DNA of 64,000 nt from Candidatus Raymondbacteria bacterium RIFOXYA2_FULL_49_16 (GCA_001789205.1 MFYT01000107.1:19707-83706); one strand, 5' to 3'. Positions 38,810-60,984 are shown, counted from the first letter of the stretch. Made by a program: numbers and translations. The notes: generated from the letters alone by a model not told the origin.

Positions 38810-39062
38810 AGAAATATAAGAAGCCTGTCGTTGCTTCTTTCTAATTCGACCTGTAGTAGCTGTTATAAAATAGTCTGCATTCATTTTTTAACAGACCCAG
38901 ACCTCGAAAAGCCAGGTCTATTGCCGTTGCCCACAACATTTTTACCATATGTCATCATCCTTTTTTATGGTCCGGAATAGAATTAAAGCAAACGATATGC
39001 CATATAGTTAAAACACTCAGATCACCTTGGTTTTTTTAGAAATTCGTCAAATTTTAATCTAA

Positions 39063-39080
39063 ATTCTCAGCATTGAGAAT
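39063..39080. promoter_or_regulatory. Inverted repeat, possible activator site
   Basis: ATTCTCAGCATTGAGAAT: perfect 7-bp arms around GCAT. It lies about 85-90 bp upstream of the predicted -24 GG, the usual range for sigma-54 activator binding sites. No T-tract follows, so it is not a terminator. Confidence 0.4.
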
Positions 39081-39144: not shown

Positions 39145-39160
39145 AGGCCCTCTTTTTGCG
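39145..39160 (+). promoter_or_regulatory. Sigma-54-type promoter of the receiver-GGDEF gene
   Basis: AGGCCCTCTTTTTGCG. The -24 GG and -12 GC are exactly 10 bp apart, and the -12 element TTTTTGC is a strong match. The -24 element deviates from TGGCAC at two places. The predicted start site would be about 30 bp before the ATG. Confidence 0.55.
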
Positions 39161-39201
39161 GGTTCCTTCAAACAAAGACATCTTTTTAGAGCGGATGAAG
39201 T

Positions 39202-40191
39202 ATGAACATAATGCTCATCAGTGATTCGCCTGAGCTGGGTGCGCAGCTTCAGGACCTTTTAAAAGGTGCGGCGACACACGTGCTCAGGACCGTGAAATCC
39301 GTGGCCGAGGCAATCAATCTGCTTGGCGTGGATTTTCCGGCAGAGTCAGCACCCGCAATAGATCTCTTTCTCGCTGATGATCAGGCCTCTGGTGTGAACG
39401 GAATTCAGGTTTGTTTGCGGTTAAAATCTGTGCCCCGGCTCCGAGCCATCCCGGTCATTCTATTAACTGCAAACCGCCATGCTGGAAAACTGCAGGAGGC
39501 CTTTGACGCCGGGGTCGCGGATTTCATCACCCAGCCGTTCAATACGACAGAACTACTGGTGCGCGTACGGTCTGTCCTGAGACTTAAACAGGAGATGGAC
39601 GCGCGGGTGAAGCGTGAAAAAGAACTCCTGAAACTCTCCAGCAACCTCTCCGAGATCAACTATACCCTTAGCAGGCTTTCTTCGACCGACGTACTTACTG
39701 GGATCGCCAACCGCTCCAGGTTGGACCAATTCCTGGACCGTGAATGGAAATGCGCAATTCGTGAATCAACGCCGATTTCTTTTTTACTTATCGATATCGA
39801 TCGTTTTACTGTTTTCAACAGCAAGCTGGGACACGAACAAGGGGATGAGTGCTTCATAACAGTGGCCGGGGTCCTGGATCTGAGTTTGAAAAGACCGGGA
39901 GACCTGGCGGCGCGATTCAACGGCGGCATGTTAGCCGCAGCGCTTACGCACACTGATTCAAAGGGGGCGGCCACTATGGCCGAATTGTTGCGTCTGGCGG
40001 TTTTAATGCTGGCTATTAAGCATCCGGAATCCTCCCTCAGCCAATTCGTGACAGTAACCATTGGGGCTGCCACGGCCAATCCGGGGAAGGACGATTCCCA
40101 TCTTTCGTTGATTGTTGCCGCGGAACAGGCGCTGTACGATGCCAAACAAGAGGGACGCAACTGTTCTCGCCACAAATTGATAGCACGCTGA
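39202..40191 (+). CDS. Response regulator with degenerate GGDEF domain
   Basis: 329 residues. The N-terminal receiver has Asp59 as the likely phospho-site (LFLADDQ) and Thr89, but the conserved Lys is Gln111 (FITQPF). The GGDEF domain starts at DVLTGIANR (163-171) and keeps LLIDIDRF and GHEQGDE. The signature loop reads RFNGGML (238-244) instead of RYGGDEF, so cyclase activity is not expected. The inhibitory-site motif RxxD (RPGD, 231-234) is retained in the right place, so it may bind c-di-GMP as a receptor. It stands alone behind a sigma-54-type promoter. Confidence 0.88.
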   Translation: MNIMLISDSPELGAQLQDLLKGAATHVLRTVKSVAEAINLLGVDFPAESAPAIDLFLADDQASGVNGIQVCLRLKSVPRLRAIPVILLTANRHAGKLQEAFDAGVADFITQPFNTTELLVRVRSVLRLKQEMDARVKREKELLKLSSNLSEINYTLSRLSSTDVLTGIANRSRLDQFLDREWKCAIRESTPISFLLIDIDRFTVFNSKLGHEQGDECFITVAGVLDLSLKRPGDLAARFNGGMLAAALTHTDSKGAATMAELLRLAVLMLAIKHPESSLSQFVTVTIGAATANPGKDDSHLSLIVAAEQALYDAKQEGRNCSRHKLIAR

Positions 40192-40229
40192 GTGCCGGGG
40201 TTTCTGATGCATTCCTTGAGGCGGGAGTT

Positions 40230-40245
40230 TGGAACGGTTTTTGCT
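40230..40245 (+). promoter_or_regulatory. Sigma-54-type promoter before the 36-codon ORF
   Basis: TGGAACGGTTTTTGCT, with the exact 10-bp GG-to-GC spacing and a consensus TTGCT. It is 32 bp upstream of the small ORF, whose AGGAGAG ribosome-binding site lies in the predicted leader. Confidence 0.6.
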
Positions 40246-40277
40246 TTTCGAGCGATACTTTACCATAGGAGAGAACT

Positions 40278-40388
40278 ATGTCAGACACCATGTCCAGAGT
40301 GATCGATTGCAATCCAAACCTTATGGGGGGAATGGTTTGGGCCGAAGGCGAAAAGCACAGGGGCGCCACGTTTTATTTTTGTTTTTAA
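40278..40388 (+). pseudogene. 36-codon ORF resembling the end of a histidine-kinase ATPase domain
   Basis: The ORF starts ATG-TCA-GAC with AGGAGAG seven bases upstream and ends at TAA. Its last part (GGMVWAEGEKHRGATFYF) matches the closing segment of HATPase_c domains, usually GGxIWxES...GxGxTFYF. The residues before it (RVIDCNPNL) fit the position of the preceding helix only loosely. It is too short to bind ATP. Either an internal deletion joined the start and end of a kinase gene, or this is a real short peptide. The intact promoter-like element and ribosome-binding site favour current expression. Confidence 0.5.
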
Positions 40389-40418
40389 AATCGCAATAGA
40401 CCGGTTTCCAGACGCCCA

Positions 40419-40799
40419 TTAGGCCGCGAATGACTCCCTTTTTTCATAGAGAGCGTCAATCTTTGCCGCCATGATAAAGTCGTTTTCCGAGAGCCCGAGG
40501 ATCGCGCTGGTGTGAAATTCCACGACTACCTTTTTATAATAGACATGGATGTCGGGATGGTGGTTTTCCTTGTCCGAGAGCTGGGCGATTGGTAAAATAA
40601 AAAGGACCCCTTCCAGGTATGTTTTGAAGGCGAATTGCCTTTGTATCCGATGGATGCCGTCGCGCCTCAGTTCCCACAACGGCGCTTCATTTATGTACAC
40701 ATCCTCTTGCGCGGCCGTTAACGGCGGCAGATCACCTTTGCACGGAACGCTGTGTTTTGTTCCAATATCCATGACCGTCTCTGGCTGAAGAGAATGCAT
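40419..40799 (-). CDS. Pterin-4a-carbinolamine dehydratase-like (DCoH/PCD) protein
   Basis: 126 residues. The PCD fold is seen from LWELRRDGIHRIQRQF, the signature DKENHHPDI (His80, His81) and GLSENDF with AAKID at the end. The third conserved catalytic His, normally in a TH motif before the GLS turn, is Ser98 here (HTSAILGLS), so dehydratase activity may be reduced or lost. The ATG at 40799 is chosen: it begins two bases before the STAS stop region ends and has GGAGAG upstream. It is translated after the STAS gene. No aromatic amino acid hydroxylase is in the window. Confidence 0.82.
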   Translation of the reverse strand: MHSLQPETVMDIGTKHSVPCKGDLPPLTAAQEDVYINEAPLWELRRDGIHRIQRQFAFKTYLEGVLFILPIAQLSDKENHHPDIHVYYKKVVVEFHTSAILGLSENDFIMAAKIDALYEKRESFAA

Positions 40800-40800
40800 A

Positions 40801-41214
40801 TTACTCTCCGGTAAGCGCAAGCATGCGCATGTTGTTGTTCTGATACAGCGACACATTGCGTGCTGATTTATTGGGGCTGATAATTTTCAATCCGGCCTTG
40901 CCAGCAAGGCCCAGATGGTAGAATTTAGCGTTTATGCCGGCGTTTGCCACTATGTGCAGCTTGCGGCCGCTTTCCTTCACGATTTTCCAGAGATAGGCAA
41001 TGATACCGAAGCTATAACTGTTTATGTACGTCACCTTGGTCAGGTCGAGGAGCGGCTGGAGGGACTTTTTCTTCAGAGACGCCTCGTCGATGAGGTTAAT
41101 GAGACGTTCGGCGGAATTACCGATGATTTCTCCGGCCAGATCCATTATATAGTATCCGTCCCTCTCATCCGTTTTAATTGTGATTGAATCATCGCTTACG
41201 ATATGCTGTGACAT
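40801..41214 (-). CDS. STAS-domain protein (anti-sigma-factor-antagonist-like)
   Basis: 137 residues. The STAS fold is suggested by YYIMDLAGEIIGNSAERL and LQPLLDLTKVTYINSYSFGIIAYL. In SpoIIAA-type proteins the loop is DSSGLG with the second Ser phosphorylated; here it reads NSYSFG, so the standard phosphosite is changed (Ser66 remains, Tyr67 replaces the second Ser). No anti-sigma kinase is adjacent. It is transcribed away from the export operon and precedes the PCD-like gene by one base. Confidence 0.82.
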   Translation of the reverse strand: MSQHIVSDDSITIKTDERDGYYIMDLAGEIIGNSAERLINLIDEASLKKKSLQPLLDLTKVTYINSYSFGIIAYLWKIVKESGRKLHIVANAGINAKFYHLGLAGKAGLKIISPNKSARNVSLYQNNNMRMLALTGE

Positions 41215-41269
41215 ATGGTTCTCCCGAATAGTGGTATAATGGTTCTTTGCCTGTCTGTCGGTTTATTAA

Positions 41270-41285
41270 TGCAAAAACGATGCCA
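41270..41285 (-). promoter_or_regulatory. Sigma-54-type promoter of the STAS-PCD pair
   Basis: On the minus strand: TGGCATCGTTTTTGCA. It matches TGGCAY-N5-TTGCA with the exact GG-GC spacing. The predicted leader is about 45 nt and includes a GGGAG ribosome-binding site. Confidence 0.7.
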
Positions 41286-41398
41286 TGCCCCAGTGTCTGG
41301 GAATCGCTTGTTGGTACTAGGGTTTGCATCCCGGTCAAGGCAACACGTTCTTATTATTGAAGTTTTGTGTTCAAATCATAAGAATGACGCTTAAGGCG

Positions 41399-41421
41399 CC
41401 GTGGATACTGCCATTCCACGG
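41399..41421. promoter_or_regulatory. Inverted repeat in divergent promoter region
   Basis: CCGTGGA and TCCACGG form perfect 7-bp arms separated by 9 bp. It lies between the two sigma-54-type promoters, a place where an activator could serve both. Confidence 0.35.
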
Positions 41422-41442
41422 GCATTGTTCGAAATTTACACT

Positions 41443-41455
41443 ATTGAGACTCAAT
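41443..41455. promoter_or_regulatory. Inverted repeat ATTGAG-A-CTCAAT
   Basis: Perfect 6-bp arms around one base. It shares the TGAG/CTCA elements with the repeat upstream of the receiver-GGDEF gene, about 85-90 bp upstream of its own -24 element as well. Confidence 0.3.
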
Positions 41456-41475
41456 TGCTGGAAATGCAAATTATT

Positions 41476-41490
41476 GGCGCATGGTGCGCC
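41476..41490. promoter_or_regulatory. Inverted repeat GGCGCA-TGG-TGCGCC
   Basis: Perfect 6-bp arms around TGG, about 40 bp upstream of the -24 element of the export operon promoter. Possible protein-binding site. Confidence 0.3.
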
Positions 41491-41530
41491 GGATCATTCA
41501 CTTTAGAGGGTATTTTCCCCCTTTGGTTTT

Positions 41531-41546
41531 TGGCATACCTTTTGCG
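41531..41546 (+). promoter_or_regulatory. Sigma-54-type promoter of the export operon
   Basis: TGGCATACCTTTTGCG, preceded by T. GG and GC are exactly 10 bp apart and both elements are near consensus. The predicted start site is about 40 bp before the sugar-transferase ATG. Confidence 0.7.
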
Positions 41547-41597: not shown

Positions 41598-42716
41598 ATG
41601 ATACCTGCACTGAGAGGATTGTTTTCAAAACCCGCTGAAAACGTGCCGGACAAATCAGAATTGTTTCCGGAGGAATTATTTCGCGAACTACTGACCATTG
41701 AACGGAAGCGGAGCGAACGGTCCAAGAGGCCTTTTCTCCTGATGCTTATCGATATTTCCGCGCTTTTCCCTAAAAATGGACAGAAGAGCAGGATCATGAA
41801 CGTGTTTTACGCCGTTCAATCGTCGACACGGGAAATCGACATCAAGGGATGGTATCATGAAGCAAGGGTGTTCGGGATAATCTTTACGGAACTTGATGCC
41901 GCGGGCCAGGAGTCCGTCCTCAGCAAAATCAATGCGAACCTTGAAAAGTACTTGGAACCAAGCGAAGTGAAACTGGTCCGTATCATACTTTCCTGCTTTC
42001 CGGACGCCGGCGGCGGCCAGGCGGACATCGGGGACACGGGAGAATTATTTTATTCCAGATCCGAGAATAAAAAAAAAACAGCTGATCTCTTTTCACTGAG
42101 ACGGGCGATGGATGTTTCCGGCAGCCTTTTTATCCTGACTGCGCTCTCGGTGCTTCTGGGGGTCATCGCGGTCTTGATCAAAATATCATCGAAAGGGCCG
42201 GTGATCCATAAGCAGATCCGGCTTGGGCAAGGTGGCAGAAAATTTACGTTTTATAAATTCCGGTCCATGCACGCGGACGCTGATAGTTCCCTGCATGAGC
42301 GGTATGTGCGGTTTCTGATTCAACGCGAGAACCACGGGGCGGACGAGAATAAACAGGTCTGGAAAAAACTGAAGGACGATTCCCGGGTCACGCCGTTTGG
42401 CAGGTTTTTACGAAAGACGAGTCTGGACGAACTCCCGCAATTTTTCAACGTGCTTAAGGGTGACATGACCCTCGTGGGTCCGCGGCCACCGATTCCGTAT
42501 GAATTTGACCACTACGAGTCCTGGCACAAGCGCCGTGTGCTTGAATGCAAACCGGGAATCACCGGGTATTGGCAGGTGGAATGCCGCGGTGAAACGACGT
42601 TCGATAATATGGTCCGTATGGATATTCACTATTGTCAGGAGCGGTCATTCTGGCTTGACCTCAAACTGCTGGTAAAGACGCCCTGGGCCATTCTTACAAC
42701 GCGCGGCGCGGGCTGA
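41598..42716 (+). CDS. Polyprenyl-phosphate sugar-1-phosphate transferase (initiating enzyme) with degenerate GGDEF-like N-terminus
   Basis: 372 residues. It transfers a sugar phosphate to undecaprenyl phosphate and starts repeat-unit synthesis. The C-terminal bacterial sugar-transferase domain has one TM (residues about 175-200), then [46 protein letters not shown] and [10 protein letters not shown]. The N-terminal 150 residues lack the usual four TM helices; [20 protein letters not shown] resembles the start of a GGDEF domain without catalytic motif. GAGGAG precedes the ATG at 41598; the earlier ORF-track start would lie inside the promoter. Confidence 0.9.
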
Positions 42717-42733: not shown

Positions 42734-43744
42734 TTGATTAACATCGGCGTTATTGGGTACGGTTACTGGGGTCCAAATGTTGTACGGAACTTCAACAACG
42801 CGGAAGGCGCCCGGGTTGTCGCGGTGTGCGACAAGGATCAGGAAATTTTAAAAAAGGTGATGAAGGCAAACCCCGGGGTCCTTGCCGTGGCTTCGGTCGA
42901 TGATATTACGGCGTCCAAGAACATTGATGTGGTGGCGATAGTGACATCGGTCTCTTCGCACTATGAACTGGCCCGGAAGGCGCTGGAGAACGGGAAGCAC
43001 GTTTTTATCGAAAAGCCCTTTACTGCCACGGCCGCGGAGGCGGCGTCGCTCATTGAGCTTGCGGAGAACCGCAAGCTCAAGATAATGGTTGACCATACCT
43101 TCCTGTTCACCGGGGCGGTACGGACCATCAAGGAATTGATAGACAATAAGACCCTCGGCGACATTTTTTATTATGATTCGGTGCGGGTCAACCTCGGACT
43201 CTTCCAGCACGACGTGAACGTGGTGTGGGACCTAGCGCCCCACGATTTTGCGATAATGAATTACCTGATTAATGAAAAGCCCATGTACATCGCGGCATGC
43301 GGCAAGTCGCATATCAACCATCTCGAGGACATCGCCTATATCACGGCCCATTTCAACAGCAACATCCTCGCCCATTTCAGCGTTAATTGGATGTCGCCGG
43401 TCAAAATCCGGCACGTACTTATTGGCGGGGAAAAGAAGATGCTGGTTTGGGACGATATTAACCCGGATGAAAAAATAAAAGTGTATGACAAAGGCGTGGT
43501 GGTCACCACTAAGCAAGGGATATACGATATGCTTGTCAGCTACCATACCGGCGACGTGCTGGCGCCCCATGTAAGCCAGATAGAGGCGTTGAAATTGGAA
43601 TGCGAGCATTTCGTGGACTGTATCGTGAACGACAAAAAACCTATCAACGACGGATATTCAGGCCTCGAAGTGGTGCGCATGCTTGAAGCGTGCGATAGGT
43701 CCATGCGGGACCGCGGCAGGATGGTCCGGGTGCACAGCGGATAA
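42734..43744 (+). CDS. Gfo/Idh/MocA-family NAD-dependent sugar oxidoreductase (WbpB-like)
   Basis: 336 residues, TTG start with GGGGAG 7-8 bp upstream. Rossmann motif NIGVIGYGYWGPNVVRNF; the family lysine is in HVFIEKPF. In the WbpB/WlbA group the enzyme oxidises C3 of UDP-GlcNAc uronate. The neighbouring hexapeptide acetyltransferase and DegT aminotransferase complete the WbpB-WbpE-WbpD set that makes UDP-2,3-diacetamido-uronic acid. The UDP-GlcNAc 6-dehydrogenase for the first step is not in the window. Confidence 0.87.
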   Translation: MINIGVIGYGYWGPNVVRNFNNAEGARVVAVCDKDQEILKKVMKANPGVLAVASVDDITASKNIDVVAIVTSVSSHYELARKALENGKHVFIEKPFTATAAEAASLIELAENRKLKIMVDHTFLFTGAVRTIKELIDNKTLGDIFYYDSVRVNLGLFQHDVNVVWDLAPHDFAIMNYLINEKPMYIAACGKSHINHLEDIAYITAHFNSNILAHFSVNWMSPVKIRHVLIGGEKKMLVWDDINPDEKIKVYDKGVVVTTKQGIYDMLVSYHTGDVLAPHVSQIEALKLECEHFVDCIVNDKKPINDGYSGLEVVRMLEACDRSMRDRGRMVRVHSG

Positions 43745-43769
43745 GTACAAATAAAATGGAGGCGGTTTT

Positions 43770-44297
43770 ATGGAAATGAATCGATACGGCGGCGCTGCGA
43801 CTGACGCACCCGATGAAACTGACGGACATCTGCGTTCCATTGGAGCCAATGTTGTCCTAGGCGAGGGTGTGTATCTTGGAACATTCATTAATTTGTACGG
43901 GTGTATAATAGGCGATGGGACCAGGATCGGGGCGTTTGTGGAAATCCAGAAAAACGCGACCATCGGCAGGCATTGCAAGATTTCGAGCCACACCTTCATT
44001 TGCGAGGGCGTCACAATCGAGGACGATGTTTTTATCGGACACAGCGTGGTCTTCATAAATGACAAATATCCCCGGGCCACAACCGGCGCGGGTGAACCGC
44101 AGACAGAGGCGGATTGGAACGTGTGCCAAACCCTGGTCAAAAAAGGGGCTTCCATAGGTTCCAATGCCACCATTCTGTGCGGTCTGACCATTGGCGAGAA
44201 GGCCGTTGTCGGCGCTGGAAGCGTTGTTACCAGGGACGTGCCCGCCAATACCGTGGTCGCGGGGAATCCGGCACGGACCATCAGGAGGATCTCATGA
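43770..44297 (+). CDS. Left-handed beta-helix N-acetyltransferase (WbpD-like)
   Basis: 175 residues. Hexapeptide repeats run through the protein (IGANVVLGEGVYLGTF, IGDGTRIGAFVEI, IGRHCKI, IGSNATI, IGEKAVVGAGSVV), and the C-terminus has VVAGNPARTI. The central FINDKYPRAT loop is typical of WbpD/WlbB-type UDP-amino-sugar N-acetyltransferases. It would acetylate the 3-amino group made by the following DegT enzyme; its stop overlaps that gene's start. Confidence 0.88.
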   Translation: MEMNRYGGAATDAPDETDGHLRSIGANVVLGEGVYLGTFINLYGCIIGDGTRIGAFVEIQKNATIGRHCKISSHTFICEGVTIEDDVFIGHSVVFINDKYPRATTGAGEPQTEADWNVCQTLVKKGASIGSNATILCGLTIGEKAVVGAGSVVTRDVPANTVVAGNPARTIRRIS

Positions 44298-45487
44298 GTA
44301 TGGAAAATGTCCCATTTCTTGACATGGAGGCTGTCCATGCAGGGCTCGAAGATGAAATGGTCGCGGTGTTCAGGCAGACCCTTAAAAGCGGCCGGTTTAT
44401 CGGCGGTCCCAAAGTTGAGGGGTTTGAAGCGGCCTTTGCCAGCTTTTGCGAGGTCCCATATTGCGTGGGTGTCGGCAGCGGCACTGACGCCCTCCGGTTC
44501 GCGTTGATTGCGGCCGGCATTGCGTCAGACGACCGCGTTATAACCGTGCCCAATACCTTCATTGCGACGACAGAGGCGATTACGCAGAGCAACGCCCATC
44601 CGGTGCTCATCGATGTCGATGAACGAACTTTCACTATGAGCGCCGAACGGCTGACGCACTATCTGGAACAGGAATGTGCCAAAGAGACGGCGTCGGGACA
44701 AACCCGCGAGATAAAAAGCGGCAAGCGCGTGGCCGCGGTAGTCCCGGTCCATTTGTACGGTCAGATGGCGGACATGGATCCTATCATCGAACTTGCCAAT
44801 GCTCATGGACTTATCGTGATCGAGGACGCGTGCCAGGCGCATGGGGCCGAATATTTTTCAAAGAAACAGAACCGGTGGTGCAAGGCGGGTTCAATGGGTA
44901 ATGCCGCGGCCTTCAGTTTTTATCCGGGAAAGAACCTGGGTGCGCTGGGAGAGGGAGGCGCCGTAACGACCCATGATTCCGGTATCGCGGAAAAAATCCG
45001 GCGTCTCCGCGACCATGGCCAATCCAAAAAATATATCCACGAGATTGAGGGATACAACGGCAGACTGGACGCACTCCAGGCCGATTTTCTTACCATCAAA
45101 CTGAGCAAGCTTAACGAGTGGAACGAACTTCGGCAGCAGATCGCCCGGCGCTACGACAACCTGCTGGCGAACGTGGGAGATATCGTCACACCGTTCACAC
45201 CGGTCTGGGCCAGGTCAATCTATCACCTGTACGTGGTGCGCACCCAACGCCGTGATCCGCTGAAGAAATATCTTCTGGATCACGGGATTGAAACAGGACT
45301 GCATTACCCGCTGCCGCTGCATCTTCAGGCCGCGTACGAAAAGCTGGGATATCCTCCAAAAAGTTTTCCCGTGACTGAAAAGGCGGCTCTGGAAATTCTT
45401 TCCCTTCCCATGTTCCCGTCGCTTTCCGAATCCCGGCAGGAGCGGGTGATCGAGCATATAAAGGAATTTTATCAGTCTCCGGTATAA
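44294..45487 (+). CDS. DegT/DnrJ/EryC1-family aminotransferase (WbpE-like)
   Basis: 397 residues. PLP-dependent transamination of a 3-keto sugar nucleotide is likely. Motifs: GVGSGTDALRFALIAAG, VPVHLYGQMADMDPI, VIEDACQAHGA and Schiff-base Lys213 in FYPGKNLGALGEGG. The start at 44294 has AGGAGG seven bases upstream and overlaps the acetyltransferase stop by ATGA; the ORF-track start is deep inside that gene. It is a second, clearly different copy of the type of enzyme encoded at 33.8 kb. Confidence 0.91.
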   Translation: MSMENVPFLDMEAVHAGLEDEMVAVFRQTLKSGRFIGGPKVEGFEAAFASFCEVPYCVGVGSGTDALRFALIAAGIASDDRVITVPNTFIATTEAITQSNAHPVLIDVDERTFTMSAERLTHYLEQECAKETASGQTREIKSGKRVAAVVPVHLYGQMADMDPIIELANAHGLIVIEDACQAHGAEYFSKKQNRWCKAGSMGNAAAFSFYPGKNLGALGEGGAVTTHDSGIAEKIRRLRDHGQSKKYIHEIEGYNGRLDALQADFLTIKLSKLNEWNELRQQIARRYDNLLANVGDIVTPFTPVWARSIYHLYVVRTQRRDPLKKYLLDHGIETGLHYPLPLHLQAAYEKLGYPPKSFPVTEKAALEILSLPMFPSLSESRQERVIEHIKEFYQSPV

Positions 45488-45508
45488 TTACAATCACAAG
45501 GAGCAGGG

Positions 45509-46678
45509 ATGAGAGCCTGCATGGTGGCCTATACATTCTACGAATCAGACAACCGCGTCAGGCGGTATGCCGAGGCGCTTGTGCGCAGGGGCGATTCCGT
45601 TGACGTTATTGCGCTGTCGCACCCTGAACGGCCCGACCGGCGCGAAATAAACGGCGTGCGCGTCTACAACGTCCAGAAGCGAAAACCGGATGAAAAGGGA
45701 AAGCTCACGTATCTCTTTCGCACCACGTTATTTCTGATACGCTCATGTATTGCCCTGACTCTGCGGCACATCAGAAAACCATATCAGCTTGTGCATGTAC
45801 ACTCGGTACCGGATTATGAGGTGTTTGCGGCGACTATCGTCAAACTTCTGGGCGCCAAGGTCATATTGGACATGCACGACCTGGTACCGGAGTTTTACGC
45901 GGCCAAATTCAGCAACGGCGCAGCCACGCCGCTTTACAGGGCGTTACTTTTTATCGAACGGTTGTGCTGTTCCTTCTCAGATCATGTCATTATTTCCAAC
46001 GATTTATGGGCGGAAAAAGTGGTCGGACGGTCGGTCAACAGAAACAAATGCATGACCATCCTGAATTACCCGGACCCCGCTATTTTCCACAGGCGCAACG
46101 CGGCCCGTCTTACGTGGCACCCCTTCACTCTTATCTATCCAGGGTCCCTCAATTGGCATCAGGGGCTGGATATTGCGATACGGGCCGTGGCCCAGGTCCG
46201 GAAAGAGCCCCTGGCGGTGGAATTTCATGTATATGGCAGGGGTCCCGAGGAGTCTACCCTGCGGGCCATTGTCGAACACCTCAACCTCAATGATATTGTT
46301 AAATTCCACGGACTATTGTCGCTTGAGGAGATGGCAAAACGGATGGAGGCAGCGGACGCGGGATTGGTACCCAAACGGGCGGATGGATTCGGAAACGAGG
46401 CCTTCAGCACGAAAATATTTGAATTCATGGCGTTGGATGTGCCGGTGATTGTGTCAAGGACCAAGATAGACCAGTATTATTTCGACGATTCGCTCGTCAT
46501 GTTTTTTGAACCGGGAAGCGTGGATGATTGCGCGGAGAAGATATCTTCCTGCATACGGGACCGCGGGTTGGCGCTTCAGCGTGCGCACAATGCGGCGCCA
46601 TTCATCAGGGAACATTCCTGGGACCGGAAACAGGAGATGTATTTCAATCTGGTGGATTCACTGGTGGTCCGGGCGTGA
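45509..46678 (+). CDS. Glycosyltransferase family 4
   Basis: 389 residues, GT-B fold. The N-terminal domain starts RACMVAYTFYESDNRVRRYAEAL. The C-terminal donor-binding domain has LIYPGSLNWHQGLDIAIRAVA, FHVYGRGPEE and the retaining GT4 motif ADAGLVPKR...FSTKIFEFMALDVPVI, with the Glu of EFMA. AAGGAG lies 7 bp upstream of the ATG. The donor sugar is unknown. Confidence 0.9.
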   Translation: MRACMVAYTFYESDNRVRRYAEALVRRGDSVDVIALSHPERPDRREINGVRVYNVQKRKPDEKGKLTYLFRTTLFLIRSCIALTLRHIRKPYQLVHVHSVPDYEVFAATIVKLLGAKVILDMHDLVPEFYAAKFSNGAATPLYRALLFIERLCCSFSDHVIISNDLWAEKVVGRSVNRNKCMTILNYPDPAIFHRRNAARLTWHPFTLIYPGSLNWHQGLDIAIRAVAQVRKEPLAVEFHVYGRGPEESTLRAIVEHLNLNDIVKFHGLLSLEEMAKRMEAADAGLVPKRADGFGNEAFSTKIFEFMALDVPVIVSRTKIDQYYFDDSLVMFFEPGSVDDCAEKISSCIRDRGLALQRAHNAAPFIREHSWDRKQEMYFNLVDSLVVRA

Positions 46679-47529
46679 ACCGTTATCCGCCGTTTGAGCG
46701 GCTGGTCAGCCTCTATGCGGTCCAGCCCCTGCGTCGGTTGCTGGGTGTACAGGGCGACAACATGCTGAGCGTCCTGATGTATCACAGCATTTCGGATGCG
46801 GATGAAAGCGCTGTCGCTCCCTACTATCGTCTCTGCACACCGCCAGCCCTGTTCGAACGCCACCTGCAGATTATCCGGGAAAAAGGGTATGGCATTCTGG
46901 GATTGGCCGAGGCCGTGGAACAACTTCATAACGGGACGCTCACAGGTGGAAATGTGGTCATAACATTTGACGATGGCCTGCTGGACACGTATGAAAATGC
47001 GTTTCCCTTGTTGCTGCGGCATGGCGCTCCAGCGACCGTTTTTCTCCCGGTTAATTTTATAACAGACCGCACCATGCGATTACGGGGGCAGGAACATCTT
47101 ACCTGGCAAAATGTGATTGAAATGGCACAAAATGGCATGGCATTTGGTTCCCATACGCTGACCCACAGAAACCTGAGAATACTTCCCCGGGCGGTCCTTG
47201 CAAACGAGATTGCACGCTCCAAGGTGATTATTGAAGACCACCTTGGTATAACGGTCCAGTCCTTTTCATACCCGTTCGCCTTTCCGGAAACGGAGAAACG
47301 CCTTATCTTGTTTATCCGGCAATGTCTTGAGCATAACAAATACACCTGTGGAGTCACCACGATGATAGGTACCGCCTCAGCCTCACAGGACAGGTTTTTT
47401 CTGCACCGGATACCGGTCAATTCATCCGATGACGAGGCCCTTTTTACGGCAAAACTCACTGGGTCGTATGACTGGCTCCATGGAGTGCAATACGCGTTTA
47501 AAAAAGTGCGCAGGATGGTCGATGTATGA
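46675..47529 (+). CDS. Polysaccharide deacetylase (NodB domain)
   Basis: 284 residues from a GTG that overlaps the upstream stop (GTGA). The NodB signature is complete: VITFDDG (Asp99, Asp100), GSHTLTH with metal ligands His160/His164, and LRGQEHLTW. No signal peptide is evident, so the enzyme may act on the lipid-linked repeat unit in the cytoplasm. The ORF-track start lies 49 codons inside the glycosyltransferase gene. Compared with the zinc-finger deacetylase at 18 kb, its active site is canonical. Confidence 0.85.
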   Translation: MNRYPPFERLVSLYAVQPLRRLLGVQGDNMLSVLMYHSISDADESAVAPYYRLCTPPALFERHLQIIREKGYGILGLAEAVEQLHNGTLTGGNVVITFDDGLLDTYENAFPLLLRHGAPATVFLPVNFITDRTMRLRGQEHLTWQNVIEMAQNGMAFGSHTLTHRNLRILPRAVLANEIARSKVIIEDHLGITVQSFSYPFAFPETEKRLILFIRQCLEHNKYTCGVTTMIGTASASQDRFFLHRIPVNSSDDEALFTAKLTGSYDWLHGVQYAFKKVRRMVDV

Positions 47530-48428
47530 AAAACACTTTGCCGGTGTATGCGGTGATAACCCCGGTCAGGGACGAGGAGCGGTATATCACCTGGACGCTC
47601 AAATCCATGGTCAGACAAACCCATCTCCCTACACTATGGATTATTGTGGATGACAGTTCAACGGACAATACCCCGAACCTGGTCCGCAAATATGCGGCGC
47701 ACCATGCCTGGATACAGTACCGCCAGATACAAAGGGCTTCCCCGCGCCAGACCGGGTCGGCCGAGATACTCGCTTTCAATTACGGGTTGGATTTTTTGGA
47801 TGGCGTCCCCTACGATATACTTGTGAAACTCGACGCTGACGTATCGATAAGTAAAGATTATTTTGCGGAACTTGTTTCCCGGTTCGCACGCAATGAAAAA
47901 CTGGGCATTGCCTCGGGCGTCTATCTTGAGCGGAAAAAGCAACGCTGGACGCCTGTTCCCATGCCGGCGTACCACGCGGCAGGCGCAAGCAAGGCCGTGC
48001 GGGCCGCGTGTTTCAAGGAGATGGGAGGATTTGTGCCTCATCGCGGCTGGGACACTGCGGACGAGATCACAGCCCTTTCACTAGGATGGGAAACGAGGCA
48101 TTTTCCCGAATTGAAATTCTACCATCTGAAGAATGAAGGGTCGGGAATGGGGTTGTTATTCACTGGTATCATGCACGGCGAAATAATGTACCGGACCACG
48201 GGCGGGGTCTTTTTATTCATGCTTCTTAAATCGTTGGCCAGGATTGTGGCGGACAAGCCGTTTTTCCTGGGAGGCGTTGCGTTGCTGTTTGGATACCTTA
48301 AGACCATGATTGCCCGGCCATCCCTGCTGGTTTCTCCGAAAGCGGCTTTGTTGTACCGGGGGATATTGAACCAGCGCTTGTTTGAAGGGTTTCACCGGAT
48401 CACTTTACACGCCTTTAAACGGGCATGA
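47526..48428 (+). CDS. Glycosyltransferase family 2 with C-terminal membrane segment
   Basis: 300 residues. VYAVITPVRDEERYITWTLKSM and WIIVDDSSTDNT begin the GT-A fold; KLDADVSI is the DxD-type site. The late W(D)TADEIT motif and a hydrophobic region (FLFMLLKSLARIV, FFLGGVALLFGYL) follow. It overlaps the deacetylase gene by ATGA. Donor and acceptor are unknown. Confidence 0.88.
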   Translation: MKNTLPVYAVITPVRDEERYITWTLKSMVRQTHLPTLWIIVDDSSTDNTPNLVRKYAAHHAWIQYRQIQRASPRQTGSAEILAFNYGLDFLDGVPYDILVKLDADVSISKDYFAELVSRFARNEKLGIASGVYLERKKQRWTPVPMPAYHAAGASKAVRAACFKEMGGFVPHRGWDTADEITALSLGWETRHFPELKFYHLKNEGSGMGLLFTGIMHGEIMYRTTGGVFLFMLLKSLARIVADKPFFLGGVALLFGYLKTMIARPSLLVSPKAALLYRGILNQRLFEGFHRITLHAFKRA

Positions 48429-48437
48429 GGATTGGCC

Positions 48438-50324
48438 ATGTGCGGGATATGCGGCATATATAATTTCAAAGACCGTGCCATTGACCGTGACCTGCTGGGC
48501 GGTATGACGGAAATAATGAGACACCGGGGACCCGATGGCTCGGGTTTTTATTCCCACGGCCCGGTGGGGCTGGGCCACCGCCGCCTGAGCATTATAGATA
48601 TCGAGGGAGGCGGCCAGCCCATGACCAATGAAGACAACACGCTGCAGATGGTATTCAACGGCGAGATTTATAATTATATCGAGTTGGGCGAAACGCTGAA
48701 GAAAAAAGGCCACGTCTTCAGGACATTCTCCGACACTGAGGTGATTGTGCACGCGTATGAGGAAAGCGGCATCGATTGCGTCCGGCAATTCAACGGTATT
48801 TTTGCCTTTGCGCTATGGGATGCCAAACTCGGACAACTCTTTCTGGCGCGCGACCACCTGGGCGTTAAACCGCTCTATTACACGGTGTCCGAGGACGTAT
48901 TTTATTTCGCGTCTGAGATAAAATCACTGCTTGTAAATCCCCGGTGCCGCCGGGAAGTGGACATCGCGGCCCTGGGCAGTCTTTTTACCTACCGGTATGT
49001 GCCGTCACCCGATACCATGTTTTTGGGCATAAAAAAACTGCCGCCAGGCTGCTCCATGGTCGTGGACGCCAGGGAATGCCGCGTCACCCGGTACTGGGAC
49101 CGGACGCCCCAGCACCTGACAGAGTACAATGAGGGAACGCTCATTGAGCAGTATCAGGCCCTGTTCGAAGACGCGGTGCGGCTGCAGCTCCGGAGCGACG
49201 TGCCCGTGGGACTGTTTTTAAGTTCCGGTGTTGATTCGGGCGCGCTCCTTGCCTGTATGCGGAAAAGCACATCAGGCCCCATCCATACCTTTACCATTGG
49301 TTTTGAAGATGGGGAAAAAACCAATGAAACCGCGGATGCGCGGGTCATGGCGCGCCAGTTCGGGGCGGAGCACGACGAGATGACCGTTTCCTCACGCGAT
49401 TATGAAGACTACTATGCCCGTTATCTCTGGGACATTGAAGAACCTGTGGGCAATGAGACCGCGGCCGCCTTTCACTTTGTCAGCCTGCTTGCCAGCCGGA
49501 AGGTCAAAGTAGCGCTGACGGGACAGGGCGCGGACGAGCCCTGGGCCGGGTATCACCGGCATATTGGCGTCAAACTGTCTTCGTTGTACGCAGGATTGCC
49601 GCGATTTCTGACAGAGGGGATCATACGCCCCCTTGTCCAGATGTTGCCCCGGAACGAACGGCTGAAACGCGGCGTTGACGCTCTCTCGGAAAGCGACCTG
49701 CTTTCCCGTTTTACACGGATTTATTCCTTCTATTCCGCGGCCATGAAGAAGAGGCTTTTTATGCCCTGGATCCAGGACATTCTCCATAACGGCGATTCAA
49801 GCGCCGGGGCCGTCCTTCGCCGGTTCCAAGGCGACGTAACCCACCTCGATCCGCTTTCACAGATGCTCTACATTGATACGCGGATGAACCTTCCTGACGA
49901 CCTGCTTATGGTGGGCGATAAGACCTCCATGGCCAATTCGCTTGAGGCCCGGGTCCCGTTTCTTGACTACCGGCTTGTGGAATTCATCGAATCCCTCCCG
50001 TCCCGGCTCAAACTCAGGGGGTTTCAGGGAAAATATTTGCACAAAAAAGCGATGCTGAAATGGCTTCCCCGGGAGGTGGTTTTCCGGAAGAAGAAAGGCT
50101 TCGCCAATCCCATCACCCGATGGCTCAGAGAGAGCATGGCCGGGTATGTGGATGAATGCCTTCTAAGCCAGGATTCGTCAATTGGCCGGTATTTTCAAAA
50201 AGACTATGTTAAAGCCCTTATACACAGCCACGTCTCGGGCAATGAGGACTATATGCGGCACCTGTATCTGTTGATATCGTTTGAACTATGGCACAGGAAA
50301 TTCATTCAGCGGTCGCCCGTATGA
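48438..50324 (+). CDS. Asparagine synthase-type glutamine amidotransferase
   Basis: 628 residues. The class II glutaminase domain begins MCGICGIYNF with the nucleophile Cys2; I start at this ATG because removal of Met exposes the Cys. The synthetase half has FLSSGVDSGALL (PP-loop), VALTGQGADEPWAGY and the late RVPFLDYRLVEF. It resembles the AsnB-like amidotransferases found in exosortase/EPS clusters, which are thought to amidate sugar carboxylates rather than make free asparagine. A uronic acid from the neighbouring WbpB-WbpD set would be a suitable target, but this is inference. Confidence 0.9.
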   Translation: MCGICGIYNFKDRAIDRDLLGGMTEIMRHRGPDGSGFYSHGPVGLGHRRLSIIDIEGGGQPMTNEDNTLQMVFNGEIYNYIELGETLKKKGHVFRTFSDTEVIVHAYEESGIDCVRQFNGIFAFALWDAKLGQLFLARDHLGVKPLYYTVSEDVFYFASEIKSLLVNPRCRREVDIAALGSLFTYRYVPSPDTMFLGIKKLPPGCSMVVDARECRVTRYWDRTPQHLTEYNEGTLIEQYQALFEDAVRLQLRSDVPVGLFLSSGVDSGALLACMRKSTSGPIHTFTIGFEDGEKTNETADARVMARQFGAEHDEMTVSSRDYEDYYARYLWDIEEPVGNETAAAFHFVSLLASRKVKVALTGQGADEPWAGYHRHIGVKLSSLYAGLPRFLTEGIIRPLVQMLPRNERLKRGVDALSESDLLSRFTRIYSFYSAAMKKRLFMPWIQDILHNGDSSAGAVLRRFQGDVTHLDPLSQMLYIDTRMNLPDDLLMVGDKTSMANSLEARVPFLDYRLVEFIESLPSRLKLRGFQGKYLHKKAMLKWLPREVVFRKKKGFANPITRWLRESMAGYVDECLLSQDSSIGRYFQKDYVKALIHSHVSGNEDYMRHLYLLISFELWHRKFIQRSPV

Positions 50325-51292
50325 TACAGGATGCCACCATGGACCTCTCCATCATCATCATCAACTGGAAATCAGTTGCATACCTTGAAAAATGCGTCGC
50401 GAGCATTTTCGCGCACACGAAGGACCTGGAGTATGAAGTGATTGTGGTTGACAATGCCTCGGACGACGGGTGCTGTGGAATGCTTGCTGAAAAATACCCC
50501 CGCGTGCGGTGTATTGAAAGCAGCACTAATCTTGGTTTTTCCCGGGCCAATAATCTGGGATACACGTGCGCGCACGGCAAAGCCCTGCTGTTTTTAAATC
50601 CGGATACGGAGGTATACGGACACGCTATCAGGATACTGTATGCCATTCTCATGGCCTCGCCGGCCATCGGGATCGTAGGCGGTAAACTATTAAACCCGGA
50701 CCTGACCATGCAGACAACCTGCGTTCTTCCTTTTCCGACCATAATGGGCCAGGTGTGCGACAGCGAGTGGATTAAACGCATATTCCCGTCGTATCACTCT
50801 TGGGATGCGCCTTCTTCTTTGGATCATCCGCATGGTCCGGTCGAAGTAGAAGCAATTTCCGGGGCATGCATGATGGTGAGGCGGGAAGTGTTTAAAGCGG
50901 TGGGACTTTTCAGCCAGGAGTATTTTATGTACGTTGAGGACGTTGACCTCTGCTTCAAAGCCCGCCGGAACGGATGGATGACGGCCTATATCGGCAACGC
51001 GCGAGTTGTGCATTTTGGGGGAGGGAGCAGCGAGAAAAACCGCCAGGGGAATTTCGCCTCGGTCATGATGCGTGAATCGAACTATTTGTTTTTTCAGAAA
51101 TACCATTCCGCAGGTTATGCCCTGGCCTATCGCGCAATCATGGCCATGACTGCCGCGTTCCGCATGGTCCTGCTGACCTTTGCGCTCCCTGTCTCGGGCT
51201 TTGCCAGGCTGCGAAAATGGTTTGGAATCTTCCGCTGGTCCCTGGGGCTAGAACCCTGGGCTGTAAACCTTCACTCCAGGACACGCGAATAA
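50321..51292 (+). CDS. Glycosyltransferase family 2 (rhamnosyltransferase-like)
   Basis: 323 residues. LSIIIINWKSVAYLEKCVASI, VVDNASDDG, NLGFSRANNLG and FLNPDTEV are strong signatures of the WbbL/rhamnosyltransferase group. GACMMVRREVF, YFMYVEDVDLCFKARRNGW and VVHFGGGSS follow. The ATG at 50321 overlaps the amidotransferase stop by ATGA; another ATG 18 bp downstream would also work. The C-terminal 60 residues are hydrophobic. Confidence 0.9.
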   Translation: MIQDATMDLSIIIINWKSVAYLEKCVASIFAHTKDLEYEVIVVDNASDDGCCGMLAEKYPRVRCIESSTNLGFSRANNLGYTCAHGKALLFLNPDTEVYGHAIRILYAILMASPAIGIVGGKLLNPDLTMQTTCVLPFPTIMGQVCDSEWIKRIFPSYHSWDAPSSLDHPHGPVEVEAISGACMMVRREVFKAVGLFSQEYFMYVEDVDLCFKARRNGWMTAYIGNARVVHFGGGSSEKNRQGNFASVMMRESNYLFFQKYHSAGYALAYRAIMAMTAAFRMVLLTFALPVSGFARLRKWFGIFRWSLGLEPWAVNLHSRTRE

Positions 51293-51293
51293 C

Positions 51294-52757
51294 ATGGGAC
51301 CGATTACTGCTTTGCAGTCTCTTATTAACGGCGCAGGGCTGAAAGCGCGCATGGCCCGCGGCGGATTGTGGATGGGCGGGGGCAATGGCGTGGAGCATGC
51401 GCTGCGGTTTGTCAGAAATATGGTGTTGACGCGCATTCTGGCGCCCGAGGCCCTGGGGCTCATGGCCATCATTTCCTCGGTCACCGCAGCCCTTGAAGCC
51501 TTTGCTGAACTGGGTATCCGGGAAGCCATTGTCCAGAACCCGGCAGGCGACAAGGACACCTATCTGAATAGCGCGTGGTTTTTGTCCCTGATCAGGGCCG
51601 TAGGCCTGTTGGCCGTGGGTATGGCCATTTCACCGTATGTAATCACATTTTACCATATAGAATATCCGGTGATACTCGTCAGAATTGCGCTTCTGGGTAT
51701 TTTGTTCAACGGCCTGATAAGCGCCAGGGCATATGTTGCCTTGAAAAAAATGGATTATAAAAAATGGGTCTTTATATATCAGGGAGGCGGCATTATCGGG
51801 ACACTGACAACGATAGTCCTTGTCTTTTTCATCAGAAATGTTTGGGCCCTTGTCATCGGGTTTGTCGTCGAGGCGGCCATGCGGTGCCTGATTTCGTACA
51901 TATTGTGCCCGTATTTACCCCGCCTCTCATTCAACGCGGAACATACAAAGGCCCTTAAGACCTTTTCGCTGGGTATGTTGGGCCTGCCTGTGTTTTATTT
52001 CATTTTTATGCAGACAGATATCTTTGTGTTGGGCAGGCTCTGTTCCAAGGCGGAGCTGGGTGTTTATAGCATGGCAGCGGTCCTGGCGCAGGCGCCGGCC
52101 CTGCTCATTTCCGTGTTCATCAATCCCATCATGATGCCCGTGTTCTCTGAAATAAACGGCCAGTACGACCGCATTAACCGGATGCTGTTTCAGATCACCA
52201 GGGGGCTCTGCTATGCCTGTTTTCCCGCGCTCGTTTTCTGCGCGCTCTATGCGAAAGACATATTGTCCCTGGTGTATGGGGCCCCCTATGGCGTGGTGGC
52301 GCTTCCTTTTGCATTGATATTTATGTCCACTATTTTGCGGACCTGCAGCGCACCTCTGACAACCCTGTATTTCGCCTCTGGACGGCCCAGACTGCAGCGA
52401 CGTTTTGTCATTATCCGGGCGGCATTGATGGTGGCATTGATCTACCCCCTCACCGTGGCGCTTGGGCTTGCGGGCGCTGCGCTGGCAGGCCTCCTGGCAA
52501 TGGCGATCGCTTATTTTTTCCAGGTATTCCAGTGCCGGCGTATCAGCGGACTGGATGTGACCGGGTATTTTGCGCTTTTCGGCAGGGGAGCCCTGCTTGC
52601 AGCGCCCGTTGCTGTTGTCTGGGGCCTTCTGCCCTCCACCTCTTTGCCGGTTTTTTTACACCTTTCCATGGCAGCGGGCGCTTGTCTTCTTACCTATGGC
52701 ATAGTGTTCGTCTTTTTCCACAGGTTTAGTAATAAAAAACAGGTGTTACCCGTATGA
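51294..52757 (+). CDS. Oligosaccharide flippase, MOP family (Wzx/WzxC-like)
   Basis: 487 residues and roughly 12-14 TM helices. The N-terminus GGLWMGGGNGVEHALRFVRNMVLTRILAPEALG is typical of the WzxC/polysaccharide exporters. It flips the polyprenyl-linked repeat unit across the inner membrane. It follows the GT2 gene by one base and overlaps the next gene by 4 bp. Confidence 0.92.
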   Translation: MGPITALQSLINGAGLKARMARGGLWMGGGNGVEHALRFVRNMVLTRILAPEALGLMAIISSVTAALEAFAELGIREAIVQNPAGDKDTYLNSAWFLSLIRAVGLLAVGMAISPYVITFYHIEYPVILVRIALLGILFNGLISARAYVALKKMDYKKWVFIYQGGGIIGTLTTIVLVFFIRNVWALVIGFVVEAAMRCLISYILCPYLPRLSFNAEHTKALKTFSLGMLGLPVFYFIFMQTDIFVLGRLCSKAELGVYSMAAVLAQAPALLISVFINPIMMPVFSEINGQYDRINRMLFQITRGLCYACFPALVFCALYAKDILSLVYGAPYGVVALPFALIFMSTILRTCSAPLTTLYFASGRPRLQRRFVIIRAALMVALIYPLTVALGLAGAALAGLLAMAIAYFFQVFQCRRISGLDVTGYFALFGRGALLAAPVAVVWGLLPSTSLPVFLHLSMAAGACLLTYGIVFVFFHRFSNKKQVLPV

Positions 52758-54091
52758 ATTACCTGTATATCGGCCTGCTTATTGTTCCGCTCATTGTCCT
52801 GTTACACCGCAGGTTCGAATACGGACTCTTTTTTTCCGGTTTTCTGCTGGTCGCCTTGACCACGTATCTTTCCATAAAAACACCGGGAAATCTGCCGAAT
52901 TTAACCATTCACCGTTTAATCCTCATCTGCCTGGTCGCGGTATGGCTTATCGAAAAACGGAAACGCGGTTTTATTCTGGAGAGAAAGACGCTTATAGCGC
53001 CCCTGGCGGCTGTGGCGATTGTCAACTTTATTTCAATGGCCCTGTCAATCGATGTCATGTTCAGTTTCAAGACATACCTTTCGTTCACCCTTGAGATGTT
53101 CCTGTTTTTCGTCGTGATGTCGGCCGGTTTGAAGCAGGCTGAAACCGGTCTGACGCTCGTGAAATTTATGTACGCCGGACTGCTGTTGGCCGCTGTAATC
53201 GGGATCATAGAGAAGAAAACCGGTTTTAATCCGGTTGACGCGTTTTTGCCCGGATATGTCCGCAGGGACATCATGGTCATGGACGTGCTTTCCACCTTTC
53301 CCCACCGCATTCTTTTCGGCACGGGCATGGCAATGGCCATTCCCCTGGCCCTGGGGTTGTCAAGCATCGAATCTGCGCCGTGGAAACGGAACCTCTATCT
53401 GGTTTCGCTGCCTCTGGTGATACTTGCGTGCTATTTCTCGGACAGCAGGGGGCCGTGGGCGGCTGCCGCGGTGGCAGTGGGTTCGATGCTGCTTTTTGGG
53501 TCTGTCGCGATGAAAAGAAAAATAGTACTCTGTTTGGTTGCCGGGATATGTGCGTTGGGCTTGAAGGCAGGGGTCAGGGACACACTCAACGCGAAGCTGC
53601 AGGAGACCAGGGACAAGGATTCGTTCAAGGGACAGACCTATCAATACCGCTGGGACCTCTGGCGCGTGGCGTTTAACGGCATAAAAAGATCGTTAAAAAC
53701 AATGGCGGTGGGGACCGGCGTGGGGACCGGCGAGATCAAGGTCTATACAGCCGTTCTGGCCGGATCGAACGAAGTAATCATGGTCGAAAGCTGGGACAAT
53801 GAATTTGCCGCGACCCTTCTCGAAACCGGGTTTTTGGGTCTTGCCATGGTCCTGGTGCTCCATTTTAGGATTATCGTGAACCTGATCCGGGCGTGGACCG
53901 TTGCAGCGCCCGACAATCGAAACCTTCTGGCCGGAATTGTCGGGGCCATTTTGGCCCAGATTTTCATGATGACAAATGTCAAAATGTTTTCCGCCCAGGT
54001 CAACTACCTGATGTGGGCATTGGTCGCCAGCGGCCTGGCGATCGGTTTTGGCGCGCGCACGCCAGCTGCGGCCGTATCTGTACGAAGATGA
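52754..54091 (+). CDS. O-antigen polymerase / Wzy-like membrane protein
   Basis: 445 residues with about ten TM helices, including very long hydrophobic stretches at both ends. A large periplasmic-type loop with TYQYRWDLWRVAFNGIK and AVGTGVGTGEI, followed by ESWDNEFAATLLETGFLGL, is characteristic of the O-antigen ligase/polymerase superfamily. It would join repeat units on the periplasmic side. It overlaps the flippase gene by 4 bp. Confidence 0.88.
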   Translation: MNYLYIGLLIVPLIVLLHRRFEYGLFFSGFLLVALTTYLSIKTPGNLPNLTIHRLILICLVAVWLIEKRKRGFILERKTLIAPLAAVAIVNFISMALSIDVMFSFKTYLSFTLEMFLFFVVMSAGLKQAETGLTLVKFMYAGLLLAAVIGIIEKKTGFNPVDAFLPGYVRRDIMVMDVLSTFPHRILFGTGMAMAIPLALGLSSIESAPWKRNLYLVSLPLVILACYFSDSRGPWAAAAVAVGSMLLFGSVAMKRKIVLCLVAGICALGLKAGVRDTLNAKLQETRDKDSFKGQTYQYRWDLWRVAFNGIKRSLKTMAVGTGVGTGEIKVYTAVLAGSNEVIMVESWDNEFAATLLETGFLGLAMVLVLHFRIIVNLIRAWTVAAPDNRNLLAGIVGAILAQIFMMTNVKMFSAQVNYLMWALVASGLAIGFGARTPAAAVSVRR

Positions 54092-54101
54092 GGAAGAGCC
54101 T

Positions 54102-55280: not shown

Positions 55281-55292
55281 GGAGGTGTAATT

Positions 55293-56609: not shown

Positions 56610-56616
56610 TACGCAC

Positions 56617-57915: not shown

Positions 57916-58583
57916 AATTACTTTACCCGTTCATCCGCCTGCTGGCGCTGTTGTCTTTTATCTTTCTGGCGGACAGTGCCTGGGCGCAGACAATCCGGTT
58001 CGATTCACTGGGCCAGGGCGACGCTATCCGTATTATTTTTTACCCGGACAGCGGGTCGTTTTTAAACGGAAGGTATCCAATTGACAACGAGGGAAATATT
58101 GTGCTGCCGCTGCTTGGAAAGACCAATATCAGCGCAATGGACGAGAGGGAAATAGTGGGCTTTCTGAACAAGGCGTTTGTGGACCAGTTGCGGTATCCCA
58201 ACGTGCAGATACAGCCGTTGATACGCATAGCGTTTATCGGCGGTTTTCATCAGCCGGGTTTTTATTACCTTGATCCTGGGGCGTCGCTTTGGGCGGCGGT
58301 CGGGACCGCGGGGGGACCGGTACGTGAAGATGGTCTCCACCTCATGAGATGGGAACGCCATGGGGAAATTCTCAGCGAACAGTTGGGACCGGGTCTGGAA
58401 TCCGGCCGCTCACTAAGGGATCTTGGTTTCAAATCAGGCGACCAGATCTGGGTGACCGCACGGCCCAGGCAGCAGGGATGGGATACCTTCAATACAAAGG
58501 TTCTGCCGGGTTTGACCTTCCTGGTTTCTACCCTGACAGCTTCGGTCACACTGTATTTCACCTATCGTTATTTTTACCGGTAA
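57912..58583 (+). CDS. Polysaccharide export protein (Wza-like, short)
   Basis: 223 residues. A signal peptide (LLALLSFIFLADSAWAQ) precedes a Poly_export domain (QGDAIRIIFYPDSG...PIDNEGNIVLPLLG) and one SLBB-type domain (IAFIGGFHQPGFYYLDPGASLWAAV). Unlike E. coli Wza there is no lipobox cysteine, and only one SLBB domain. The C-terminal segment GLTFLVSTLTASVTLYFTYRYF is a single TM helix, equivalent in position to the membrane-crossing helix of Wza. It precedes the Wzc-like gene by 14 bp. Confidence 0.88.
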   Translation: MKLLYPFIRLLALLSFIFLADSAWAQTIRFDSLGQGDAIRIIFYPDSGSFLNGRYPIDNEGNIVLPLLGKTNISAMDEREIVGFLNKAFVDQLRYPNVQIQPLIRIAFIGGFHQPGFYYLDPGASLWAAVGTAGGPVREDGLHLMRWERHGEILSEQLGPGLESGRSLRDLGFKSGDQIWVTARPRQQGWDTFNTKVLPGLTFLVSTLTASVTLYFTYRYFYR

Positions 58584-58597
58584 AGAAGGGAAGACCT

Positions 58598-60952: not shown

Positions 60953-60984
60953 GGGCATCGTAAACCGGAGGAAAGGGGCGTTGC

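Follow-up and report, generated by a model that had tools for sequence, protein, structure and literature searches.

The DNA considered here is a stretch of 64,000 nucleotides from Candidatus Raymondbacteria bacterium RIFOXYA2_FULL_49_16 (MFYT01000107.1:19707-83706), called the window below, in which five promoter elements of the -24/-12 type used by sigma-54 lie within 2.5 kb in front of a 21-kb polysaccharide operon. Four of these elements had been listed in an earlier reading of the sequence alone (the original prediction), which took them as one dedicated sigma-54 switch for polysaccharide export. Taking the explanation as a whole, we think it fairly likely that this region serves as a control block through which sigma-54 governs extracellular polysaccharide. 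The features are given below, each promoter being named after the position of its -24/-12 element within the window and its strand.

38841..38948, minus strand: possible 35-codon open reading frame (ORF) MVKMLWATAIDLAFRGLGLLKNECRLFYNSYYRSN or short RNA, about 40 bp past promoter 39002
38987..39002, minus strand: sigma-54 element TGGCATATCGTTTGCT, the strongest of the window by both matrices used here, absent from the earlier list
39145..39160, plus strand: sigma-54 element AGGCCCTCTTTTTGCG, preceding the receiver-GGDEF gene
39202..40191, plus strand: protein with a receiver and a degenerate GGDEF domain (Pfam; motif aligned to a relative's intact GGDEF protein)
40230..40245, plus strand: sigma-54 element TGGAACGGTTTTTGCT, found by the matrices, without the activator palindrome (see below) upstream
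40278..40388, plus strand: 36-codon ORF with the sigma-54 promoter 40230 and a ribosome-binding site
40419..40799, minus strand: pterin-4a-carbinolamine dehydratase-like protein (Pfam PF01329), its likely start an internal Met near 40799
40801..41214, minus strand: STAS-domain protein (Pfam PF01740)
41270..41285, minus strand: sigma-54 element TGGCATCGTTTTTGCA, preceding the STAS gene
41531..41546, plus strand: sigma-54 element TGGCATACCTTTTGCG, preceding the 21-kb operon; relatives have sites at the corresponding place
41598..42716, plus strand: first gene of the operon, an initiating sugar-phosphate transferase (Pfam/NCBIfam)
42734..62820, plus strand: remainder of the operon, with sugar dehydrogenase, acetyltransferase, aminotransferase, glycosyltransferases, flippase, ligase-like, Wza-like, Wzc-like and amidotransferase genes

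All four elements of the original prediction are present where it placed them, with exactly 10 bp between GG and GC, and the fifth, 39002(-), had been missed though it is the best in the window by both matrices. As sigma-54 promoters the elements show GG and GC 10 bp apart in a TGGCAY...TTGCW context. By an approximate consensus matrix, three elements are strong, 40230(+), 41285(-) and 41531(+), which score 15.5-16.9 and are all in the top four of the window, and 39145 reaches 8.7, with about 29 other window positions scoring higher. A second, clade-specific matrix, trained on 68 sites that all come from other genomes, ranks 39002, 41285, 47133 (coding), 40230, 39145 and 41531 first to sixth in the window. 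Thus, 39145, the first site of the original prediction, is weak by the textbook matrix yet is rescued at fifth place by the clade matrix. The promoters 39002(-) and 39145(+) diverge.

The background was estimated from 884 kb sampled out of the 5.43-Mb genome, including the window and the region of the activator candidate described below, with ORFs marked and with true and wrong spacings scored. Among intergenic sites scoring at least 13.5, 11 had the true spacing, compared with 4, 2, 3 and 0 at spacings of -2, -1, +1 and +2; at a threshold of at least 15 the corresponding counts were 7 versus 1, 2, 0 and 0. The latter count becomes 8 with 41531, which falls inside an over-extended ORF, and four of these eight cluster in the 2.5 kb studied here. 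Coding sites in the sample showed little excess at the true spacing. In the entire genome, the strict pattern TGGCAYNNNNTTTGC matched 15 times compared with 6 for its reversed form, and 3 of the matches are at this locus; the others lie mostly within ORFs, and one stands 64 bp before a gene of the flagellar rod/hook type, a class of usual sigma-54 targets. Because a spacer one base longer gave 7 strict matches compared with 9 at the correct spacing, counts of the strict consensus are not decisive by themselves, and position and context are needed. The genome has a single match for rpoN (E 1.4e-58) and encodes 27 strong enhancer-binding proteins (EBPs). The original prediction was to be abandoned if rpoN were lacking or if the sites were as dense in random coding DNA; since rpoN is present and the true-spacing intergenic sites exceed the wrong-spacing controls, its sigma-54 reading stands.

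The promoter of the operon is also found in relatives. About 20 loci of the same phylum, which we guess to be Fibrobacterota from the pattern of the relatives, have a comparable operon that begins with a full-length homologue of the first gene (43-51% identity). Of 20 loci, the window among them, 11 had a sigma-54 site scoring at least 12.9 within 450 bp before the first-gene match, compared with 0, 0, 1 and 0 at wrong spacings, and 4 further loci have a weaker TGGTC variant. Partial first-gene homologues in an abundant genus that belongs to family f3 have no such sites at the gene. The sole relative of the same order has no full-length first gene, so that a footprint between close relatives is impossible. 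Within the operon (41598-62820) the intergenic gaps are at most 44 bp, and the contig terminates where the window ends. A STAS gene likewise diverges from the polysaccharide operon in one relative (G033), and a homologue of the pterin dehydratase lies near sigma-54 sites, beside a paralogue of the EBP described next, in another (G007).

There is no EBP gene on this 84-kb contig. The activator candidate and the palindromes considered as its binding sites or otherwise are the following.

G000:C98:13876-15174 (L143:9362-10684), minus strand: receiver-AAA-Fis EBP, the best activator candidate
39064..39079, no strand: candidate activator-binding palindrome TTCTCA-GCAT-TGAGAA, at -77 from promoter 39002 and -81 from 39145
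41399..41421, no strand: second palindrome, with the sequence CCGTGGA-N9-TCCACGG, located halfway between 41285 and 41531
41435..41450, no strand: weak match to the activator palindrome with 3 mismatches, at -96 from promoter 41531, within the background range

In genomes G007 and G019, the gene for an orthologous receiver-AAA-Fis EBP is transcribed away from the operon, sigma-54 sites lie in the interval, and the EBP on contig C98 shares 54% identity with that orthologue (502 bits), the next-best EBP of the genome reaching 269 bits. The C98 protein has the receiver, sigma-54 AAA domain and Fis-type helix-turn-helix of an NtrC-type EBP; it matches NtrC, AtoC and LuxO models over most of its length, and the Pfam domains were seen in two orthologues. 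The recognition helix is conserved in the family as LGIS-xx-SLYRKL. The loop that contacts sigma-54 reads GAFTSA in the C98 EBP and GAFTSA or GAFTSS in every orthologue with a readable loop, and it is GAFTGA in the 12 other EBPs of the same genome that were inspected. The same loop change in NorR (G266S) kept function and gave partly constitutive activity (PMC2941729). In C98 and in relatives, the recurrent neighbours of the EBP are a second receiver protein and PtsI-like, rubredoxin-like and 2-oxoacid oxidoreductase genes. The neighbourhood of the EBP paralogue in G007, which has sigma-54 sites, contains homologues of the pterin dehydratase and the transferase N-domain of the window and of the rubredoxin-like gene of C98, and it thus bridges the two loci. 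C98 also has a divergent sigma-54 pair, 4189(-)/4384(+) (L143:4114-4464), before the rubredoxin-like gene and the PtsI-like/oxidoreductase set, and the rubredoxin-like gene is followed by glycogen-synthase-like and GH57-like genes.

The palindrome came from a survey of 6-mers that pointed to TGAGAA. Since 7 of the 67 sites surveyed were from the window or C98, this discovery step depends partly on the window; the test on relatives is independent of it, the relatives' sites having served for both discovery and test. In the relatives only, 15 of 60 intergenic sigma-54 sites and 1 of 22 in coding DNA had TTCTCA-N4-TGAGAA, with at most two mismatches, at a distance of 40-150 bp upstream, compared with a mean of 0.6 and a next best of 3 for permuted palindromes in the same test. 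The signal peaks at a gap of 4 only, other gaps giving at most 4 sites. Generic palindromes were not enriched upstream of sigma-54 sites (14 of 67 versus 38 of 170 controls), and among the palindromes surveyed this specific dyad alone stood out. The copy at 39064-39079 is the only exact one in the 5.43-Mb genome and sits halfway between 39002 and 39145; the offsets given above are measured from the -24 element, activator sites being looked for roughly 80-150 bp upstream. When promoter and palindrome were scored together across the 884 kb with the relatives' matrices, the top composites were, in order, 39002, the C98 promoter before the gene pair of the receiver protein and the EBP, and 39145. 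The promoter of the EBP's own gene pair thus carries a similar palindrome, and the flagellar promoter L201:6644 has none in the composite scan. On these sequence comparisons, the C98 EBP is the leading candidate to activate the divergent promoters 39002 and 39145. Across the entire genome, the palindrome with at most one mismatch occurs 21 times, compared with 3 for the reversed pattern, perhaps because of codon composition. Near-copies elsewhere were discarded as further targets: the 14 that were inspected, out of 20, all fall within ORFs and have no good sigma-54 site. CCGTGGA-N9-TCCACGG was likewise rejected as an activator site, its one other genomic near-copy having no sigma-54 site nearby.

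The ORF at 38841-38948 is directly followed by a hairpin with a U-rich tail at 38839-38818, and the transcript folds with z = -2.1; a search of Rfam gave no credible match. In the protein at 39202-40191, NGGML replaces GGDEF and RxxD is kept as RPGD; without an intact GG[DE]EF motif it does not qualify as a diguanylate cyclase, and it is likely a receptor of cyclic di-GMP (c-di-GMP) or an inactive cyclase. When it was used to search contigs, the matches were all distant GGDEF or receiver proteins. The transferase N-domain (41598-42031) also lacks the GGDEF motif; R78 and D81 of its RxxD are invariant in an alignment of 16 sequences, and this RxxD aligns with that of the receiver-GGDEF protein (hhalign). 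A single-sequence structure model of the domain was poor (predicted local distance difference test, pLDDT, 48) and was replaced by an alignment-based one with a pLDDT of about 75-89. The domain has a GGDEF fold, with a Foldseek match to 6khu at a TM-score of 0.74 by target, and may be regarded as a candidate c-di-GMP gate. About 19 loci of the phylum keep the domain with invariant RxxD and GWY. The 36-codon ORF, which the original prediction had called kinase-like, is a real reading frame without a Pfam match; its residues 7-36 match a segment of a 1066-aa frame of contig C9 with 65% identity (E 8e-6), and it is probably a leftover histidine-kinase C-terminus (the last 30 residues), so that promoter 40230 leads to a kinase remnant only.

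With five promoters and the palindrome of the relatives, the bacterium probably turns slime export on by an on-demand switch of a kind known in other bacteria. In such a scheme, sigma-54 RNA polymerase would wait in the closed state at the five -24/-12 promoters, and the C98 EBP, once phosphorylated, would bind the palindrome at 39064-39079 and so open 39002 and 39145, which would yield the short transcript or peptide and the degenerate-GGDEF receiver protein. The C98 EBP, or another of the 27 EBPs, would open 41285 for the STAS protein and the pterin dehydratase and 41531 for the 21-kb operon. The RxxD motif binds c-di-GMP in other proteins. Because the transferase and the receiver protein keep it without a catalytic motif, c-di-GMP could add a second, post-translational layer through their non-catalytic GGDEF-type domains.

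Several points weigh against this explanation. The consensus matrix is approximate, its weights having been chosen to follow the published consensus, and the scan covered the 884-kb sample rather than the entire genome. The palindrome is weak at 41531 (5.9 bits) and 41285 (5.3 bits), where the 95th percentile of the background is 7.3, and it is absent upstream of 40230 in the composite scan, so that one activator for all promoters is not supported. In several relatives from family f6, the operon has retained its sigma-54 site but has no palindrome. Moreover, since the palindrome was derived from loci chosen for the EBP or the operon, its assignment to the C98 EBP is by association. For the original prediction this means that sigma-54 control stands, with a candidate activator for part of the locus, and that the idea of one dedicated switch for every target is not supported as stated, because the palindrome is perfect between 39002 and 39145 only and no EBP lies on the contig. 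The earlier observation was right and even understated; its one dedicated switch for the 21-kb operon is still a hypothesis.

These points lead to the alternative that survives best, to which we give somewhat less than an even chance: separate activators, with the C98 EBP acting on 39002/39145 and one or more other EBPs on 41285, 41531 and 40230, so that several regulons meet here. It overlaps with the explanation preferred above, which leaves the activator of the operon open. The palindrome being strong at 39002/39145 only, the different palindrome between 41285 and 41531, the f6 relatives and the 27 EBPs available in the genome all argue for it, as does G045 (L119:5409-8877), where a different EBP and a 7TMR-DISM histidine kinase diverge from the same first gene, suggesting that the activator has been replaced. 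However, the second palindrome has no meaningful second genomic copy, G055 has a strong main palindrome (21.8 bits) between the operon promoter and a divergent promoter, and G033 has a moderate one before the operon (11.7 bits, near the 99th percentile of the background). Since the palindrome is strong at the operon in f5 relatives (15-22 bits) and absent there in f6, sigma-54 control of the operon seems from these comparisons to be the more widely kept feature, and the activator may vary.

A stronger form of the sigma-54 control block would be a two-layer, lineage-specific switch, which we consider rather unlikely. Here, an EBP with the GAFTSA loop, possibly loosened from receiver control, would bind the palindrome, and the transferase with its inactive GGDEF domain would be gated by c-di-GMP. 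The targets would be the EBP's own gene pair, the c-di-GMP-receptor protein, the short sigma-54-dependent RNA or peptide and the exopolysaccharide operon.

It is very improbable that the elements are chance matches or relics and that sigma-70-type promoters drive the operon. The weakness of 39145 by the textbook matrix, the kinase remnant behind 40230 and a few sigma-70-like matches nearby would agree with it, but those matches are not clearly above shuffles (6 versus a mean of 3.8, standard deviation 2.1), and the spacing controls in the genome sample and at the orthologous promoters, together with the clade-matrix and composite rankings, speak for sigma-54. A PEP-CTERM/exosortase regulatory system (PrsK-PrsR with sigma-54) is hardly credible, because the C98 EBP scores 313.5 bits against a cut-off of 502.6 for TIGR02915 (PrsR) and exosortase PF09721 is absent from a genome scored 100% complete, although the regulator architecture and the link to polysaccharide genes are the same (Haft 2006, PMC1569441) and TIGR02915 is among the high-scoring models for this protein.

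Sigma-54 control of cell-surface polymers has been established for proteobacteria and Desulfovibrio, and sigma-54 promoters beside polysaccharide genes fit a general link of this factor to the bacterial exterior (Francke 2011, PMC3162934). The literature search returned no description of sigma-54 in Fibrobacterota, nor of the activator and palindrome of this lineage. The outcome for the proposed sigma-54 control block is a named activator candidate, a defined palindrome as candidate binding site and targets that are conserved; a family of activators whose loop for sigma-54 contact is changed has also been brought to light, and the fusion of the transferase to an inactive GGDEF domain offers a possible c-di-GMP route to the first step of polysaccharide assembly. 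By analogy, the system may resemble EpsI/Nla24 of Myxococcus xanthus (PMC4877007), a receiver-AAA-HTH (helix-turn-helix) activator that is required for polysaccharide synthesis and has a c-di-GMP link; unlike there, the EBP is unlinked here, and the c-di-GMP-type domains are in the operon's transferase and the neighbouring receiver protein. A similar analogy may be drawn with DVU0110/DVUA0057 of Desulfovibrio vulgaris (PMC4641369), EBPs of the response-regulator type that act at the sigma-54 promoters of genes for exopolysaccharide and biofilm, although this is another phylum and the likeness is drawn at the level of the regulator. The PrsK-PrsR/PEP-CTERM system (PMC1569441; PMC9850573) likewise combines a response regulator of the NtrC type with sigma-54 promoters that have a motif upstream, and polysaccharide genes are close by, but there sigma-54 drives PEP-CTERM protein genes, and here the exosortase is missing and the PrsR score falls short; in Aquincola, RpoN drives a PEP-CTERM gene and apparently not the polysaccharide genes (PMC9850573). 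Sigma-54 control of exopolysaccharide is thus known elsewhere, and the activator family and its palindrome look specific to this lineage.

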